A stretch of 64,000 nucleotides of DNA from Phycisphaerales bacterium (GTDB taxonomy: Bacteria; Planctomycetota; Phycisphaerae; Phycisphaerales; UBA1924). Location of the stretch: assembly GCA_022843565.1 (NCBI GenBank), contig JALHNK010000001.1, positions 1-64,000 of the forward strand, read 5' to 3'. Below the pieces are notes generated by a model, which worked only from the letters and a program-made list of their open reading frames with translations, ran no database searches and was not told the origin of the DNA. The first letter of the stretch is position 1. Each line of letters begins with the position of its first letter. The position numbers were made by a program, and so were the translations under genes. Below are positions 49 through 64,000 of this stretch, in pieces.

Positions 49-1230
49 ATGCTTGATCCTCGCACCGGCACCCCGCCCGCGGCGACCACCCCCCCCGCCG
101 CTGACCACGCCGGTGACGACGCGATCCGACGCACGCTCGCACGCCACCCGCGCCCGCTCGGTGGCGATCCGGTCAAGCAACTCGATGCCCCGAAGATGAG
201 CCTCTCAGGCTTGATTCTCAACAACGCCGGCGGCGCAACCGACACCCTGGCCCCCAAGCGCAAGCCGAGCTGGCTCAAGGCCAAAGTCCCCGGCGGGCCC
301 GGCTACGAGCGCCTCAAGGGCATCATGGACGAGCACGGCCTGCACACCGTCTGCCAAGAGGCCGGCTGCCCCAACATGGGCGAGTGCTGGGCCCGCGGCG
401 TCGCCACGATCATGATCTTGGGCGATACCTGCACGCGCGCGTGCGGCTTCTGCAACGTCAAGACCGGGCGGCCGGCGAGCGTGGACAAGGATGAGCCGCG
501 GCGGGTCGCCGAGTCGCTGCGACTCATGGGGCTCAAGCACGTCGTGATCACGAGTGTGAACCGCGACGAGCTGCCCGACGGCGGTGCCGCGATCTGGGCC
601 GAAACGATCATGCGCTCCAAGGACGCGTGCCCGGAGATGAGCATCGAGGTGCTGATCCCGGACTTCGAGGGCAACTGGGGCGCGCTGCAGATGGTGATCG
701 ACGCGGGGCCGCACATCATCAATCACAACCTGGAAACGGTGCGCCGGATGTATCCGGCGGTGCGCCCCAGCGCGAAATTTGACCGCAGCCTGGAGCTGCT
801 CCGCCGCGTGAAGGAGCAGGGCGGCGTCGCCAAGACCGGCATCATGGTCGGCATTGGCGAGCGCGATGAGGAAGTGCTGGAGTTGATGGACGATGTGATC
901 GGCAAGACCAAGGGGACAGGGCCGAGGGCCGCGGGCTCAGCTCTGACCACTCGGCCCGCGGCCCTCGGCCCTTCTTCCTGCGACATCCTCACCATCGGCC
1001 AATACCTCCAGCCGACGCGGAACCACCTGCCGCTGGACCGGTTTGTGACGCCGGAGCAGTTTGCGATGTACCAGGACGAAGGCCTGAAGCGCGGCTTCAA
1101 GGTCGTGCAGAGTGGGCCGCTGGTGAGAAGCTCGTATCACGCGGATCATCAGGCGGACGAGTTGTCGTCGATCAAGGATGAGCGCGAGAAGCGGAATGTG
1201 GAGGCGATGCGGGGGTTGCTGGGGGGGTGA
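49..1230 (+). CDS. lipA: Lipoyl synthase (radical SAM) with an in-frame repeat insertion
   Basis: LipA inserts two sulfur atoms into protein-bound octanoyl groups to make the lipoyl cofactor of 2-oxoacid dehydrogenases and the glycine cleavage system. Both iron-sulfur cluster signatures are visible: the auxiliary motif CQEAGCPNMGECW near residue 102 and the radical-SAM motif CTRACGFC near residue 128. The C-terminal RSSYHAD serine loop is also present. The first 49 residues are Pro/Ala-rich and outside the usual family start. An internal ATG at 196 is possible, but the 5' ATG at 49 was kept. The oddity is about 22 extra residues near residues 288-310, just before the conserved DILTIGQYLQPT strand. 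They are encoded by a palindromic 7-bp repeat tract. Function is very likely retained because all catalytic motifs are intact on both sides. Confidence 0.96.
   Translation: MLDPRTGTPPAATTPPAADHAGDDAIRRTLARHPRPLGGDPVKQLDAPKMSLSGLILNNAGGATDTLAPKRKPSWLKAKVPGGPGYERLKGIMDEHGLHTVCQEAGCPNMGECWARGVATIMILGDTCTRACGFCNVKTGRPASVDKDEPRRVAESLRLMGLKHVVITSVNRDELPDGGAAIWAETIMRSKDACPEMSIEVLIPDFEGNWGALQMVIDAGPHIINHNLETVRRMYPAVRPSAKFDRSLELLRRVKEQGGVAKTGIMVGIGERDEEVLELMDDVIGKTKGTGPRAAGSALTTRPAALGPSSCDILTIGQYLQPTRNHLPLDRFVTPEQFAMYQDEGLKRGFKVVQSGPLVRSSYHADHQADELSSIKDEREKRNVEAMRGLLGG
919..974. repeat. Heptamer repeat tract with 18-bp inverted repeat inside lipA
   Basis: Eight consecutive 7-bp words run here (gggccga, gggccgc, gggctca, gctctga, ccactcg, gcccgcg, gccctcg, gcccttc). 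The outer parts form a perfect 18-bp inverted repeat, 919-936 against 954-971. The tract is translated in frame within lipA. The same GGGCCGA word recurs in the dus gene at 63539-63622. Confidence 0.85.
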
Positions 1231-8437: not shown

Positions 8438-10114
8438 ATGAAAACCGCTCGCACCCGCTCCGCACGTCCGCTCGCCGCTTGGTCGGTCGTTTTCGGTCAC
8501 GTTCTGCTGTCGAGCGCGATGGCGGGTTCGCTGCCAGCACCGACGCCGCTGGTGGCGCTCTCGGGTGATGACAAGTGTTCGCGGTGCGCGGGTGTGCTGC
8601 TGCCGGGTCGGCTGGAGTTCTTCGCGGCGGGCCGCGGCGCGGCGTCGAGCGCCAGCGGCGGCGTGGGCGATGTGCCGTTGCGCGTGGATTCGGACCTGCC
8701 GGAGATATTCCTCTCAACCGGCGTGCTGTACAGCACCAGCGCGACACTGCCGGAGTTCCGGGCCAAGGACGGCACGCTGGTGATCGAGGCTCAGCGTCGT
8801 CAGCGGAGCAACGGCTTTGCGACGATCGACGGCGGGTTCGAGGTGTTTCTCTATCACATGAGCAACCCCACGCCCGAGGTGCAGGGCGCGCTCACGACCG
8901 AGCCGCGGCAGCGGCGCGTGGTGGTGATGGTGCGGAACACGGGGGCATCGGCGGTGACAATCCGGCCCAGGCAGATCATGGAATCTCGCGGCACGATGGC
9001 CGCGGCCGATGGTCCCGAGTCGCGGCTGACGGCGCGGATGCTCCGCGCGGATTGGCGATCGGTCATCGAAACGCTGACGATCGAGCCCGGCGCGGCACGA
9101 GTCATCGCGTGGTCGCCACGCCTGAGCACGCCCGAAAAGACCGGCCCGAGCGGCTCGGAGACGGGCGCTGAGGCCGACAGTTCGCCGAGCGACTTCTTCA
9201 CCGGTATGGTGCGTGCGACGGTCGAGTCGGTGGGCGGCCAGAGCGCCCGGACCGGGCTGGAAGTCTCGGTGATCGCGATCGACGCGGCGACGGCACGCGA
9301 CGACTTTGACTCGGCGGCGCTCGCGGCGTCATCGCGCGGGGCCTGGTCGGGCGAAGGGGGCATGGACCTGCAGATTCCGCCGCCGACGTGCCACGTGCGG
9401 CGCGTCGTGGGTGTGTCCCGGAGCTTTCTGTGGCGCAGCGACGAAGTCGTGCTCAACGCGGCGGACCTGCGCGGCTTGGCGGGGCTCCCGGCGGAGCAGA
9501 ACGCCGTCGACACGCCGACGCACCGCGACCCCGACTTTCATCGCGGCGAGCGCGACCCGATCACGCCGGCGAGCGAGGCCCGCAAGCGTGCAGTCGGCGC
9601 GGTGCCCGGCGTGGCATTCCTGATGGCTGCGCCGGCGGTGCAGACGGTTTCGTGCCCGAAGGCTCGGCAGACGGCGGACATGCTTCTGCACCCCGGATAT
9701 GTGCACGCCGACACGGTGGGGAACTATCAGGTTGAGTATCTGCTCACCTTCACGCTGATCAATCCGAGCGCGAGCGAGCGGAGCGTGGACATCCGTTTCG
9801 GCAAGCAGGATGCGGACGTCGGGCTTGCGTGGCAGGTGCACTCGGGCGAGTCACCACTGAGCCGCGAGGACCTGCGGACGCTGGATGTGAATGTGCAATG
9901 GGCCGGCGGATGGCGGAAGGACGATCTGGGCGACAACACGCGATCGCTGCTTGTGCCGGCCAAGGGCACCCCGGCGGATGTCGCCGTGCCGGGACGCGTG
10001 GTTGTGCCGGCCGGAGGGAAGCGGACGGTGAGCGTGCGGGCGATGATCGTGGGGACCAGTTCGCTGCCGTTCTTCGTGTACGTCGTGCCGATGTATCGAG
10101 CGGAGGCGAAGTGA
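8438..10114 (+). CDS. Secreted protein of unknown function
   Basis: I do not recognise this 558-residue protein. It has a twin-Arg-poor N-terminal signal-like segment (MKTARTRSARPLAAW, then a hydrophobic stretch ending AMAGSLPAP near residue 33). The mature part is rich in beta-type sequence. It includes segments such as VVVMVRNTGASAVTIRP near 170 and VEYLLTFTLINPSASERSV near 430, which look like immunoglobulin-like or adhesive beta-sandwich strands. A CSRC pair sits near residue 47. No catalytic motif is apparent. It is flanked on both sides by copies of a 57-bp repeat and transcribed opposite to lnt. The start could also be elsewhere in the signal region; a cell-surface or periplasmic role is inferred only from the signal peptide. 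Confidence 0.75.
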   Translation: MKTARTRSARPLAAWSVVFGHVLLSSAMAGSLPAPTPLVALSGDDKCSRCAGVLLPGRLEFFAAGRGAASSASGGVGDVPLRVDSDLPEIFLSTGVLYSTSATLPEFRAKDGTLVIEAQRRQRSNGFATIDGGFEVFLYHMSNPTPEVQGALTTEPRQRRVVVMVRNTGASAVTIRPRQIMESRGTMAAADGPESRLTARMLRADWRSVIETLTIEPGAARVIAWSPRLSTPEKTGPSGSETGAEADSSPSDFFTGMVRATVESVGGQSARTGLEVSVIAIDAATARDDFDSAALAASSRGAWSGEGGMDLQIPPPTCHVRRVVGVSRSFLWRSDEVVLNAADLRGLAGLPAEQNAVDTPTHRDPDFHRGERDPITPASEARKRAVGAVPGVAFLMAAPAVQTVSCPKARQTADMLLHPGYVHADTVGNYQVEYLLTFTLINPSASERSVDIRFGKQDADVGLAWQVHSGESPLSREDLRTLDVNVQWAGGWRKDDLGDNTRSLLVPAKGTPADVAVPGRVVVPAGGKRTVSVRAMIVGTSSLPFFVYVVPMYRAEAK

Positions 10115-11011: not shown

Positions 11012-11550
11012 GCGAGTGCTCCGGTTGATCGATGGGCGGAGTCGCGGGTGGCTCGTGAAGATGTCGCGCCACCGAGATCGCCGGCTCTGGGGAAACGGTA
11101 TCCGGGGCGGGTGCGAGGAGCGGGGGCGTGGGATTGGTCGTTCGTCGGCCGCTCGGCGGGGCTTCATCGGCACGGTGTAGGGCGGCCCGGTGGGCCGGGG
11201 AATCCCGACGACAAACGGGAGAACGACTCCTGTCTGGCTCGGCTTCAGCCCGGCGGATGCAACCGGCGGACGGGCGTGAGCGGATAGTGGCCTCCCTGGG
11301 GTGCCGCCGCTCGCGTTCTCTGCCCGTCGCCCCGCCACTGATTTCACCCCAAATCCACCACAAGTCCTTGCGGGCAAACGAGTTGACGGGCGAGCGGGCA
11401 TCGGTTATACACTCGGCCCACGCCCGCATCCCCCACCCCCCCCACACCCCGCGTGTGCGTACGGGCGGCCTATTGTCGGCACTGGTCTTTGCTCGGTCCG
11501 GGTCCGGCCGGAAACCACATCGGAAATTTCGTCGCGTCAGGAGCCTCATT
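11012..11550. other. Intergenic region between divergent genes
   Basis: A 539-bp stretch without a convincing gene. It contains the promoter at 11383-11411 for the rightward gene. Open frames here are Arg/Pro-rich and look like shadows. No other structure was recognised. Confidence 0.6.
11383..11411 (+). promoter_or_regulatory. Sigma-70-type promoter
   Basis: TTGACG (11383-11388), a 17-bp spacer and TATACA (11406-11411) match the housekeeping consensus at 5/6 and 4/6. Transcription would start near 11418 and give a leader of about 130 bases before the GTG at 11551. Confidence 0.6.
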
Positions 11551-12408
11551 GTGCACATCGTCACCAAGATTCTCATCGTTTTCGGCGCCATCCTCTGCAT
11601 CCTGCTTTCGGCGCTGACCGTGTCGCTGGCGGGCAATACTGAGGCTGTGCGCGGGGCGTACGCCGCGGAGCGCGATGCCAAGATCGCCGCTCAGGCGGAA
11701 CTCGCGGTCGAGCGGTCCGAGTCGGCGAAGCTGACGGCGGCCGCGGCGGTCGAGAAGGAGCCGCTGGTTCGCGTCGCTCAGGAGGCCGAGGCCAAGCTTC
11801 GCGCCCTGGAGACCGAGCGGAACACGCTGAAGGCCGAGAAGTCTGAGGCCCAGGGCCAGGTGGACACGCTCCGCAACCAGTTCAACGAGCTGACTGTGAC
11901 CACGCAGACGCAGGCCTCGCTGATCAAGAGCCTGAAGGACGAGCTGGACGCCAGCCGTAAGGCCTCGCTGGACACCGCCAAGCAGCTTGCCGAGGTGATC
12001 GAGCGTCTGAACGAGTCCGAGCGCCTTCGCGGCGTGCTGGACCAGACCGCCCGCTCGCTCCGCGAGCAGCTCGAAGAGATGAAGTTGGCCAGCGCCGCCG
12101 GCGGCGCTTCGGCCGGTGCGCCGGTTGGCAGCAACGTCGCTCGCGCCGTCGAGCTGGCCGGGGCCCGCGTCAGCGGCCGCATCGTGCGGACGTTCAAGAG
12201 CCCCTCGGGCGAAGAAATGGCCTCGGTGAACATCGGCAGCGGCACGGGCCTGAAGGTCAACACCAAGCTCAACATCGTCCGCGACGGGTTCGTTGCGTCG
12301 CTGGTGATCACTGCGGTGGACGTCTCGGAGTCTGTCGGTCGCATCGAGAAGCTCGGCCGCGAGGTCGAGGTTCGTGCGGATGACCTGGTGCTGAGCCGTT
12401 TGGACTGA
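11551..12408 (+). CDS. Membrane-anchored coiled-coil protein
   Basis: A 285-residue protein with one N-terminal transmembrane helix (IVTKILIVFGAILCILLSAL). A long Ala/Glu/Lys-rich coiled coil follows (about residues 30-180, with segments such as EAEAKLRALETERNTLKAE). A small C-terminal domain (about 195-285) contains GRIVRTFKSPSGEEMASVNIG and a GLKVNTKLNIVRDG strand. That domain resembles beta-barrel modules found after coiled coils in planctomycete envelope proteins. The GTG start at 11551 was chosen because CAGGAG (11538-11543) lies 7 bases upstream and the helix begins at once; the longer open frame is probably untranslated leader. A small membrane protein follows 180 bp downstream. Function is unknown. 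Confidence 0.8.
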   Translation: MHIVTKILIVFGAILCILLSALTVSLAGNTEAVRGAYAAERDAKIAAQAELAVERSESAKLTAAAAVEKEPLVRVAQEAEAKLRALETERNTLKAEKSEAQGQVDTLRNQFNELTVTTQTQASLIKSLKDELDASRKASLDTAKQLAEVIERLNESERLRGVLDQTARSLREQLEEMKLASAAGGASAGAPVGSNVARAVELAGARVSGRIVRTFKSPSGEEMASVNIGSGTGLKVNTKLNIVRDGFVASLVITAVDVSESVGRIEKLGREVEVRADDLVLSRLD

Positions 12409-12419
12409 AGCGGGGAAGG

Positions 12420-12580
12420 AAGTCGCGAGTCGCGAGGGCCGAGTCGCGAGTGGACGGGCCTTTGGTTTTCCACGATTGCCGATTGCCGACTCCCGATTGC
12501 CGACGCTGAGTTTGCCCGAAGCCGTGCCCCTGCTTGCAGACGACTGATTGCTGACAACTGACCGCTGACAACTGACCGAA
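12420..12580. repeat. Heptamer repeat tracts (TCGCGAG, ATTGCCG, ACTGACC words)
   Basis: Three successive 7-bp-period tracts lie between two genes. One has TCGCGAG-type words (about 12422-12450), one ATTGCCG-type words (about 12474-12510), and one ACTGACC / GCTGACA words (about 12542-12578). The word changes but the period stays seven. Confidence 0.8.
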
Positions 12581-12589
12581 GGATTGACC

Positions 12590-12808
12590 ATGAGCCAGTA
12601 CGGGATGCAGATGCCGGGCGGGATGCAGAGCCGCGGGCCGTCGATGAGTGTGTACACGGGCTTGCTGCTGATCGCGGTGGTGTGCATGGTGGCGGCGTGC
12701 GCCGTGGCGTACACCGCCGCGGCTCGGGTCGCGCCCAAGGGCGATGTCTTCTCGGTCCACACTCCGGGCGATCAGGGCAAGCCGGCGAAGATTGAGCTGG
12801 CGAACTGA
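12590..12808 (+). CDS. Small single-pass membrane protein
   Basis: A 72-residue protein. It has a Met/Gln/Gly-rich head (MSQYGMQMPGGMQSRG), then a transmembrane helix near residues 20-45 (VYTGLLLIAVVCMVAACAVAY), and a short charged tail (GDQGKPAKIELAN). The ATG at 12590 is preceded by GAAGGA with suitable spacing; a TTG two codons upstream is also open. It lies downstream of the coiled-coil membrane protein and may share its transcript, with heptamer repeats filling the gap. No family was recognised. Confidence 0.7.
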   Translation: MSQYGMQMPGGMQSRGPSMSVYTGLLLIAVVCMVAACAVAYTAAARVAPKGDVFSVHTPGDQGKPAKIELAN

Positions 12809-12813
12809 GTCGG

Positions 12814-12845
12814 CAGCCTTCAGCCGTCAGCTTTCAGGGGTCAGC
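12814..12845. repeat. Heptamer repeat tract (CAGCCTT-type)
   Basis: A short degenerate 7-bp-period tract, cagcctt / cagccgt / cagcttt / caggggt. It begins 6 bp after the small membrane protein's stop. It is the reverse-strand form of the CTGAAGG words at 12931. Confidence 0.7.
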
Positions 12846-12930
12846 CAAAAAGTCACTCGCCCCTCGTCGGCTCGGTCATGATCCAGTGGCCTCAGCCGAG
12901 CCGCACGCCGGCGCCTCCGCCGCTTTCCTG

Positions 12931-13063
12931 CTGAAGGCTGAAGGCTGAAGGCTGAAGGCTGAAGGCTGAAGGCTGAAGGCTGAAGGCTGAAGGCTGAAGG
13001 CTGAAGGCTGAAGGCTGAAGGCTGAAGGCTGAAGGCTGAGAGCTGAGGGCTGGCATCTGACTG
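12931..13063. repeat. Perfect 15-unit CTGAAGG tandem array plus degenerate tail
   Basis: CTGAAGG is repeated exactly 15 times at 12931-13035. Four degenerate units follow (CTGAGAG, CTGAGGG, CTGGCAT, CTGACTG). This is the longest and purest heptamer array in the window. It lies upstream of the tRNA-Asp promoter. The surrounding intergenic stretch 12809-13235 holds no gene. Confidence 0.95.
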
Positions 13064-62813: not shown

Positions 62814-64000
62814 TTACGACGAAACCGGCGCCGGCGTGTAGAGCTCGTCGAGCACCGCCATCCAGTCGTTCAGCGTGTTCACGCCGATCATCTTCTGCTT
62901 CACCGCGTCCGGGTCCGGGTGATGCTGCGCGAACTTGATGCCGAACTTCCGCATCATGCGTCCGCTGGCCTTCTCGCCGTTGATCACGCGCGAGATCTCG
63001 AAGTGCTCGAGCAAGACCGCGCGCTGCTCTGCGAGCGTGGGCCTCGTCGGCGTCTGGCCCGCGAGCATCTGTCGTGCCTGGCGGAAGATCCAGGGGTTGC
63101 CGATGCAGCCGCGCGCGACGCTGACGCCAACGACGCCGGTGTACGCGATCATGCGGAAGATATCGGGCGCGTCCCAGACATCGCCGGAGCCGAAGACGGG
63201 CTTGTCCGGATGGCGCGAGCACAGGTCTTTGAGAAACGGCCAGCGCGAGGGGCCGATGTACTTCTGCTCCACCGTTCGCGCGTGGACGGTGGCCCACGCG
63301 TAGCCGAGCTCGTACGCCGCGTTGAAGATGATCTCGAAGTTGCGGGCCATCTCCGGCGTGTCGTCGTACGCGCGTCGCAGCTTCACGGTACACGGCACCT
63401 CCGGCGGCAGGGCCTCGCGCACGGCCTTGAGGATGGCGATGGCCCCGGCGGGTTGGGTGAGCCAGTGCCCGCCTCGCGACTTGCGGTCGATCTTCTTGAC
63501 CGGGCAGGCGAGATTGACGTCGATGGTGGCGAAAGACAGGGCCGAGGTTTGAGGGCCGAGGGCCGAGGTGGAGGGGGAGGGGGGAGTGCTGAGCGATGAG
63601 GGATGAGTGCTGAGGTTTGACGCGGCGCGCGTGGGTGGAGTTGGTCGCTGCGTATGCGCGAAGACGGCGCGCGGGTCGTAGCTCTCCGGCGGTTGCTCGT
63701 TCGCGAGTGCCAGGAGCGCTTCGGGGGTGCAGTCGTCTTCGCAGTCGGGGTCGATCGGGTCGAGGGGCGCATCGGCGTCGGTTGCGGCGGCGCTGCCCGG
63801 CGCTTCGCCGGTCACCTTCCATCGCGTATCGACATAGTGCGGCTGGCGACCCGGGCCGTACGCGATCTCGCGGTACGCCTTGTCCGGCCGCTTGCCCTGC
63901 TCCAGCATCTTGAGCGCACCGGCCGCCATCTCGTCCGGATCGCTCCCGATGATCTGACCCGACAACGGCGTGTCCTCGCGCCCGCAAGGCAGCGCGTCGG
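62814..64000 (-). CDS. tRNA-dihydrouridine synthase (partial), with an internal insertion
   Basis: A Dus-family flavoenzyme that reduces uridines in tRNA loops. The 5' end lies beyond the right edge of the window: reading continues upstream of 63965 through codons for DTPLSGQIIGSDPDEM, which corresponds to about residue 70 of the family. Visible motifs are NLACPVKKIDRK (catalytic Cys), CTVKLRRAYDD, ATVHARTVEQKYIG (FMN/tRNA-binding His) and FGSGDVWDAPD. About 100 residues separate the GALKMLEQG helix from the NLACPVKK strand, where normal enzymes have about 15. Part of that insertion is made by an 84-bp heptamer tract. DusB-type is the likeliest subfamily. Confidence 0.9.
   Translation of the reverse strand, partial: DALPCGREDTPLSGQIIGSDPDEMAAGALKMLEQGKRPDKAYREIAYGPGRQPHYVDTRWKVTGEAPGSAAATDADAPLDPIDPDCEDDCTPEALLALANEQPPESYDPRAVFAHTQRPTPPTRAASNLSTHPSSLSTPPSPSTSALGPQTSALSFATIDVNLACPVKKIDRKSRGGHWLTQPAGAIAILKAVREALPPEVPCTVKLRRAYDDTPEMARNFEIIFNAAYELGYAWATVHARTVEQKYIGPSRWPFLKDLCSRHPDKPVFGSGDVWDAPDIFRMIAYTGVVGVSVARGCIGNPWIFRQARQMLAGQTPTRPTLAEQRAVLLEHFEISRVINGEKASGRMMRKFGIKFAQHHPDPDAVKQKMIGVNTLNDWMAVLDELYTPAPVSS
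63539..63622. repeat. 12-unit heptamer tract inside the dus gene
   Basis: Twelve 7-bp units (gggccga, ggtttga, gggccga, gggccga, ggtggag, ggggagg, ggggagt, gctgagc, gatgagg, gatgagt, gctgagg, tttgacg) total 84 bp, or 28 codons, so the frame is kept. The encoded segment is Ser/Thr/Pro-rich. Confidence 0.9.

Follow-up and report, generated by a model that had tools for sequence, protein, structure and literature searches.

Results

A dus gene with an extended loop

The window, which is the whole 64,000-nucleotide stretch of Phycisphaerales DNA that was analysed, comes from a draft genome (G000) that is 89% complete and consists of 237 contigs. Near its start it carries lipA, and at its end the 3' part of dus; both genes contain tracts of seven-base units (Table 1). 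The dus gene runs beyond the window end (contig C1, 62817-64361, locus L001), and its full frame encodes 515 residues. The protein scores 127.1 bits against Pfam model PF01207, well above the gathering cut-off of 20.4. The best NCBIfam model is the DusB equivalog TIGR00737, whose match starts only past the insertion described below. Because its score of 174.1 bits lies below the NCBIfam cut-off of 293.3, the protein is named Dus and not DusB. The protein shows a predicted TIM-barrel fold and the N-x-x-C-P strand, in which N283, A285, C286 and P287 are invariant in alignment A1; we take C286 to be the catalytic cysteine.

Table 1. Features of the window and the evidence for each. Positions are those of the window.
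Feature	Position	Strand	Evidence or content
lipA (lipoyl synthase)	196..1227	+	NCBIfam lipoyl synthase; frame open from base 1
Inverted heptamer arrays in lipA	918..972	+	Arms 918-936 and 954-972, perfect 19-bp complement
Inverted heptamer pair, example	12814..13052	.	CAGCCTTCAGCC... at 12814-12846; (GCTGAAG)n at 12930-13052
dus, 3' part	62814..64000	-	ORF; Pfam PF01207, 1e-36; PDB relatives 1vhn and 6ei9
Lineage-specific linker insertion, 121 residues	63534..63896	-	Barrel helix to strand FATIDVNLACP; anchors and structure alignment
Element B, 33 bp: four heptamers and CTTCC (here CTGTC)	63535..63567	-	Genome matches of 24-mer; flank comparison
Period-7 tract	63539..63622	-	Residues 247-275 of the 515-residue Dus; lag identity and shuffles
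Element A, second heptamer unit type CCTCAGCACTCATCCCTCATCGCTCAGCACT	63580..63614	-	About 11 matches elsewhere in the genome

Foldseek searches with a predicted model of the protein (pTM 0.79) return 1vhn and DusB (6ei9) first, with a TM score of 0.86 to both on the target. Residues 73-152 and 277-480 of Dus align with residues 10-80 and 84-277 of 1vhn, and the alignment to E. coli DusB (6ei9) is similar. Relative to solved Dus structures the insertion amounts to some 122-124 residues, at a site where 1vhn and DusB have 2-3. The initial annotation had placed an insertion of about 100 residues between the helix and NLACPVKK; it lies there, and measures about 120 (121 by anchors). In the predicted model, helix 142-154 is followed by a short helix, 160-168, and then by mostly low-confidence chain. 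Residues 178-204 and 223-273 have pLDDT below 50, with a helix predicted at 213-220 between them, and pLDDT is 33-37 over residues 241-270, the tract region; strand 279-283 comes next and leads into NLACP. On this model, the loop ahead of the NLACP strand is predicted to be disordered. In a TIM barrel, the face on which helices return to strands lies opposite the catalytic face.

The tract matches itself at lag 7 in 51 of 77 positions (66%), at lag 14 in 42 of 70 and at lag 21 in 41 of 63, while the remaining lags give 30-42%. Of 20,000 dinucleotide-shuffled versions, none reaches 51 at lag 7 (they average 28.4, with an sd of 3.6 and a maximum of 44), nor does any of 20,000 in which the codons of the frame were shuffled. 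The 84 bp consist of 12 imperfect heptamer units with a one-base phase slip after unit 7, and encode the peptide ASNLSTHPSSLSTPPSPSTSALGPQTSAL. Both the heptamer period and the reading of the tract as dus coding sequence, as first annotated, therefore stand, the latter by the open minus-strand frame and its Pfam match. A scan of the window for 84-base stretches with at least 60% self-match finds 272, 232 and 172 starts at lags 7, 14 and 21. Elsewhere from lag 3 to lag 21, the same scan finds 41 starts at lag 9, 17 at lag 15, 5 at lag 18 and none at the rest.

Dispersed heptamer elements in the genome

Searching the genome with the 84-bp tract gives 41 further matches in two groups, one covering query bases 8-64 (element A) and the other mainly bases 38-84 (element B). 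The element B 24-mer, CTCGGCCCTCGGCCCTCAAACCTC, occurs at 44 sites with at most 3 mismatches, dus copy included, 14 of them exact; the reversed control occurs at none. Similarity among the 20 non-duplicate copies of element B extends from -3 to +33 and stops there. Their flanks, read by eye, are mostly other short repeats beside gene ends or terminator-like hairpins; with few flanking ORFs tested against Pfam, the copies appear to be mostly intergenic. When at most 2 mismatches are allowed, this genome has 34 sites of the 24-mer, its genus-mate G001 has 7, G112 has 11 and G031 has 1, and 96 of 100 family genomes have none. Growth in place is not what the genome indicates for the tract, which is one copy of a dispersed element, and local microsatellite growth as its sole origin is rejected because the 24-mer occurs at 44 sites.

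A 449-kb sample of the genome holds 37 lag-7 tracts, against 0-2 at lags 4, 5, 10, 11, 13 and 17; lag 8 has 16 tracts, and lags 6 and 9 have 14 each. Five of the 37 lag-7 entries, in four pairs, are inverted within 250 nt. Few 20-mers in the sample are exactly common to at least three loci; a palindromic 20-mer, GGCAGGCGGGACGCCTGCCC, occurs at six. Two element B copies on contig C50, near 18116 and 18862 (L177 and L178), lie some 750 bp from each other in opposite orientations with the same flanking sequence, which marks a local inverted duplication. Spread driven by a RAYT is not indicated: the Y1/RAYT transposase family PF01797 occurs in 48 of 61 family genomes, this genome has one weak match within a 905-residue frame, and its presence does not set the genome apart.

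No coding-like frame runs across 39 of the 53 period-7 or period-8 tracts in the same sample, and the other 14 are flanked by such a frame on either side. For those of the 14 in which Pfam gave a domain, the tract precedes the domain, except in Dus and in the ambiguous case of PheT (L148). By ORF and Pfam tests, the latter excluding a frame at window positions 11473-12771, only 1 of 53 tracts lies clearly within a conserved domain. The initial suggestion that coding insertions may be frequent finds no support here for genes at large; what is frequent is the reuse of one dus loop across related genera. In L148, a CTCGGCC-type heptamer tract at 9636-9674 corresponds to PheT frame residues 70-82, ahead of the B3/4 domain, and may fall in the coding N-terminal part.

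The insertion is older than the tract

Linker length could be measured in 53 of 61 family genomes, most genomes compared being metagenome assemblies, and ranges from 7 to 121 residues, with only 7-10 in some members. Outside the family, the linker is a single residue in all 11 same-order relatives measured. This survey omitted G019, G028, G047 and the outgroup G095, in which the helix pattern failed; the dus of G045 is cut by a contig end, and G009, G027 and G048 lack a close orthologue. The survey skipped lags that are multiples of 3, which a second survey at all lags from 4 to 17 included; G019 and G028 were added for that second survey and for the tree, and G049 for the second survey. Named relatives in the contig search are mostly Phycisphaerales bins.

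The Dus of G001, which matches the present one at 72% over residues 2-378, has a homologous insertion of 102 residues that aligns along most of its length. Its coding sequence gives no heptamer signal, with a best lag identity of 0.45. Since G001 has the insertion without the tract, the insertion is the older of the two: it is a family trait that predates the tract, which was added late. A heptamer origin of the insertion fails on the same comparison, since an insertion of this kind exists with no periodicity in its DNA, the very case that the initial annotation had named as refuting. Near relatives show partial conservation in the N-terminal half (YRxMAYG, DTRW, EDDCTPEALLAL) of the insertion, and its last 40 or so residues, which hold the tract, are hypervariable.

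Different tracts at one loop

The all-lag survey covered 55 dus linkers of the family (8,904 nt); tracts at lag 7, 8, 14 or 16 are present in 11 of them, and two linkers give a lag-9 signal. The 55 dus cores, six times as long in total (55,629 nt), hold none at any lag from 4 to 17. The units differ from genome to genome: GGGAATC in G051, GTGACGAA in G013, GGCCAAA(T/G) in G007, a GGAACT type in G003, a GATGCC type in G015, and an AGAGACG[CG] type that G039 and G056 have in common, perhaps by shared descent. Runs of N gave false tracts for G056 and were disregarded. A wider set of linkers includes one (L239) with a lag-4 signal; the dus linkers of L230, L012 and L025 hold the peptides ETGRRPVPL, GTGVPPV and AENTE, which may be translated repeats.

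On a tree built without the linker, the 13 tract-bearing rows are scattered and require 11 changes, compared with a mean of 12.2 when shuffled, and well supported branches alone force 4; all these rows lie within one 40-row part of the family. The dus units of G013 and G051 are dispersed repeats of their own genomes. Counting overlapping matches, the G013 unit has 68 matches in G013 and is found in 9 of 61 genomes, and the G051 unit has 44 in G051 and is found in 3 of 61; for the second pattern of this unit search the control has matches too, in G000 and G019. Genome-wide lag profiles of 16 relatives, set beside that of the window, show period 7 or 8 enriched in several; the G016 profile stands high at almost every lag, probably because of a run of one base. 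A link between the tract density of a genome and the presence of a dus tract is only suggestive, because some genomes with a dus tract, such as G039 and G003, are sparse.

Of the 57 family genomes with a close orthologue and both sides of the insertion assembled, 56 have the helix and the NLACP or NFACP strand in a single open frame. The exception is G047 (66% complete), in which dus is broken upstream of the linker and another protein-like frame is joined at repeats; the cause may be a chimeric assembly or a genuine break in the gene. That units of 7 or 8 bp nevertheless leave 56 of 57 genes in frame favours translation over excision or bypass, short of proof. Judged by these frames, the insert is probably translated in the cell.

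Inverted pairs in lipA and dus

That lipA is a second enzyme with such a tract, as first annotated, is correct. Its insert is an inverted pair of GGGCCGA units, of the element B type, just ahead of CDILTIGQYL, with an inverted-repeat z of 13.5 and a fold of -55.5 kcal/mol (z -7.1). Of 24 lipA genes measured (from 30 loci), only this one and that of G030 have inverted pairs, and their units differ. At the same lipA loop, the G030 pair is one of octamers, and G013 has an octamer-like stretch.

Strong inverted repeats occur in 8 of 51 dus linkers (z 6.9-13.9, matched by 0 of 60 codon shuffles in each). By inspection seven of these are paired arrays (G003, G013, G018, G039, G051, G052 and G056), and that of G011 is a plain hairpin. 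Hairpins within the coding sequences of lipA, G051 dus and G039 dus are stable, at z -5.9 to -7.3. In this window the dus tract is one-sided: it has neither an inverted pair (z 0) nor a fold (z +0.43), and an RNA hairpin was rejected for it on these values.

Discussion

We consider it likely that the dus tract is a copy of the dispersed elements A and B, taken in frame and free of stops into a disordered loop that already existed. Short heptamer elements would have been copied into a linker already present in dus, and the resulting peptide would be read through as an unstructured linker rich in Ser, Thr and Pro. The extra chain would be tolerated because the loop, where a barrel helix returns to the NLACP strand, lies on the face away from the active site, so that copies that keep the frame survive; the insert may be neutral. 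Across the family the loop would act as a sink in which genera gain 7- or 8-bp units of their own, sometimes as inverted pairs. Heptamer arrays might be copied by template switching, by recombination with one another, or by a mobile system that has escaped view.

More tentatively, and with the chances on the whole against it, the repeats may be minimal elements that spread themselves: modules of four heptamers or octamers, often in inverted pairs, carried by an enzyme or by template switching, with the loops ahead of a core strand in the barrel enzymes Dus and LipA as recurrent landing sites. If so, new protein loops would repeatedly be built from intergenic repeat DNA.

It is improbable that the low-complexity linker was selected as a functional tail, binding tRNA or a partner, with the repeats incidental. 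The partly conserved N-terminal half of the insertion, where helices 160-168 and 213-220 are predicted, speaks for such a role, but the tract lies in the hypervariable last 40 or so residues, and some family members manage with the shortest linkers. A slightly poorer prospect is that slipped-strand events lengthened a microsatellite within dus, with no part played by the intergenic repeats, and that its changing length affects the enzyme, as at a contingency locus. Periodicity can arise by slippage in place, which probably occurs here and there, as arrays of varied length suggest (for example on G007 C20); the dus tract is tandem, and the window has long pure arrays such as that at 12930-13052, with 17.6 copies. 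Yet the dus units are imperfect, 33 bp of the tract match an element of fixed sequence at 40-odd other loci, and the change of a single 7- or 8-bp unit would break a gene that stays in frame in 56 of 57 cases.

We regard as very improbable a scheme in which the inserted DNA goes untranslated, an RNA element, in the form of the hairpins of lipA and of dus in seven relatives, being removed or bypassed by the ribosome. The very stable hairpins in the coding sequences of lipA, G051 dus and G039 dus fit it, but bypass would not need the open, stop-free frames seen in 56 of 57 genes, and no hairpin is predicted for this window's dus tract. An assembly artefact of a metagenome bin can be virtually dismissed: although the draft is fragmented, repeats do break assemblies and G047 looks chimeric at repeats, the frame here is open, both dus flanks resemble those of relatives such as G001, and the pattern recurs in many independent bins.

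STRR work on cyanobacteria is reportedly due to Mazel, and papers on Rickettsia palindromic elements are said to be by Ogata. Heptameric GGGAATC and GGGGA(C/T)T repeats of Xanthomonas and Nostoc are dispersed, biased to non-coding DNA and preferentially of four units, with 70 cases of inverted pairs in Xcc and few in Nostoc (Rehm et al. 2015, PMC4692102). The present repeats resemble them (PMC4692102) in period, dispersal, four-unit arrays and, in this genome, period 7 at many loci, mostly non-coding placement (39 of 53) and inverted pairs; one G051 unit is itself GGGAATC. Unlike those described there (PMC4692102), the Phycisphaerales repeats have many 7- and 8-bp units, and in-frame copies in core enzymes at a recurrent loop. 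TAACTGA repeats of Beggiatoaceae and cyanobacteria are likewise dispersed, with a few translated within ORFs, there mostly at protein ends, but they have a fixed unit, lie mostly just before start codons and are not reported to recur in one enzyme loop (MacGregor 2015, PMC4679880). Rickettsia palindromic elements and other REPs within genes are short, dispersed and translated in frame in functional proteins, as the Dus copy appears to be, but they are palindromes with terminal tags (PMC3733652). The Dus copy is a non-palindromic heptamer array that neither folds (z 0.43) nor, by eye, has a GTAG or CGTC end tag in its 33 bp; the LipA copy is an inverted pair. A survey of prokaryote satellites also mentions heptamer-derived families in Bacteria (PMC6749651).

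The present case unites dispersed heptamers, inverted pairs and in-frame copies in the Phycisphaerales, a group for which no paper on heptamer repeats was found by title and abstract in the literature searched. It offers a natural series in one conserved enzyme across dozens of genera, from empty loop to bare insertion to insertion with repeat, in which non-coding repeat DNA turns into protein sequence. The series points to a process by which arrays of 7- and 8-bp units, differing in sequence between lineages, are spread; the earlier cases in cyanobacteria and Xanthomonas likewise come without a mechanism, and the series supplies many insertions on which a mechanism of spread can be tested.

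A further extended loop may be present in a cysteinyl-tRNA synthetase frame of this genome (L135, 2-766, minus strand), in which residues 77-251 match profile positions 2-124; the match implies about 50 extra residues within the catalytic domain, possibly another loop insertion.
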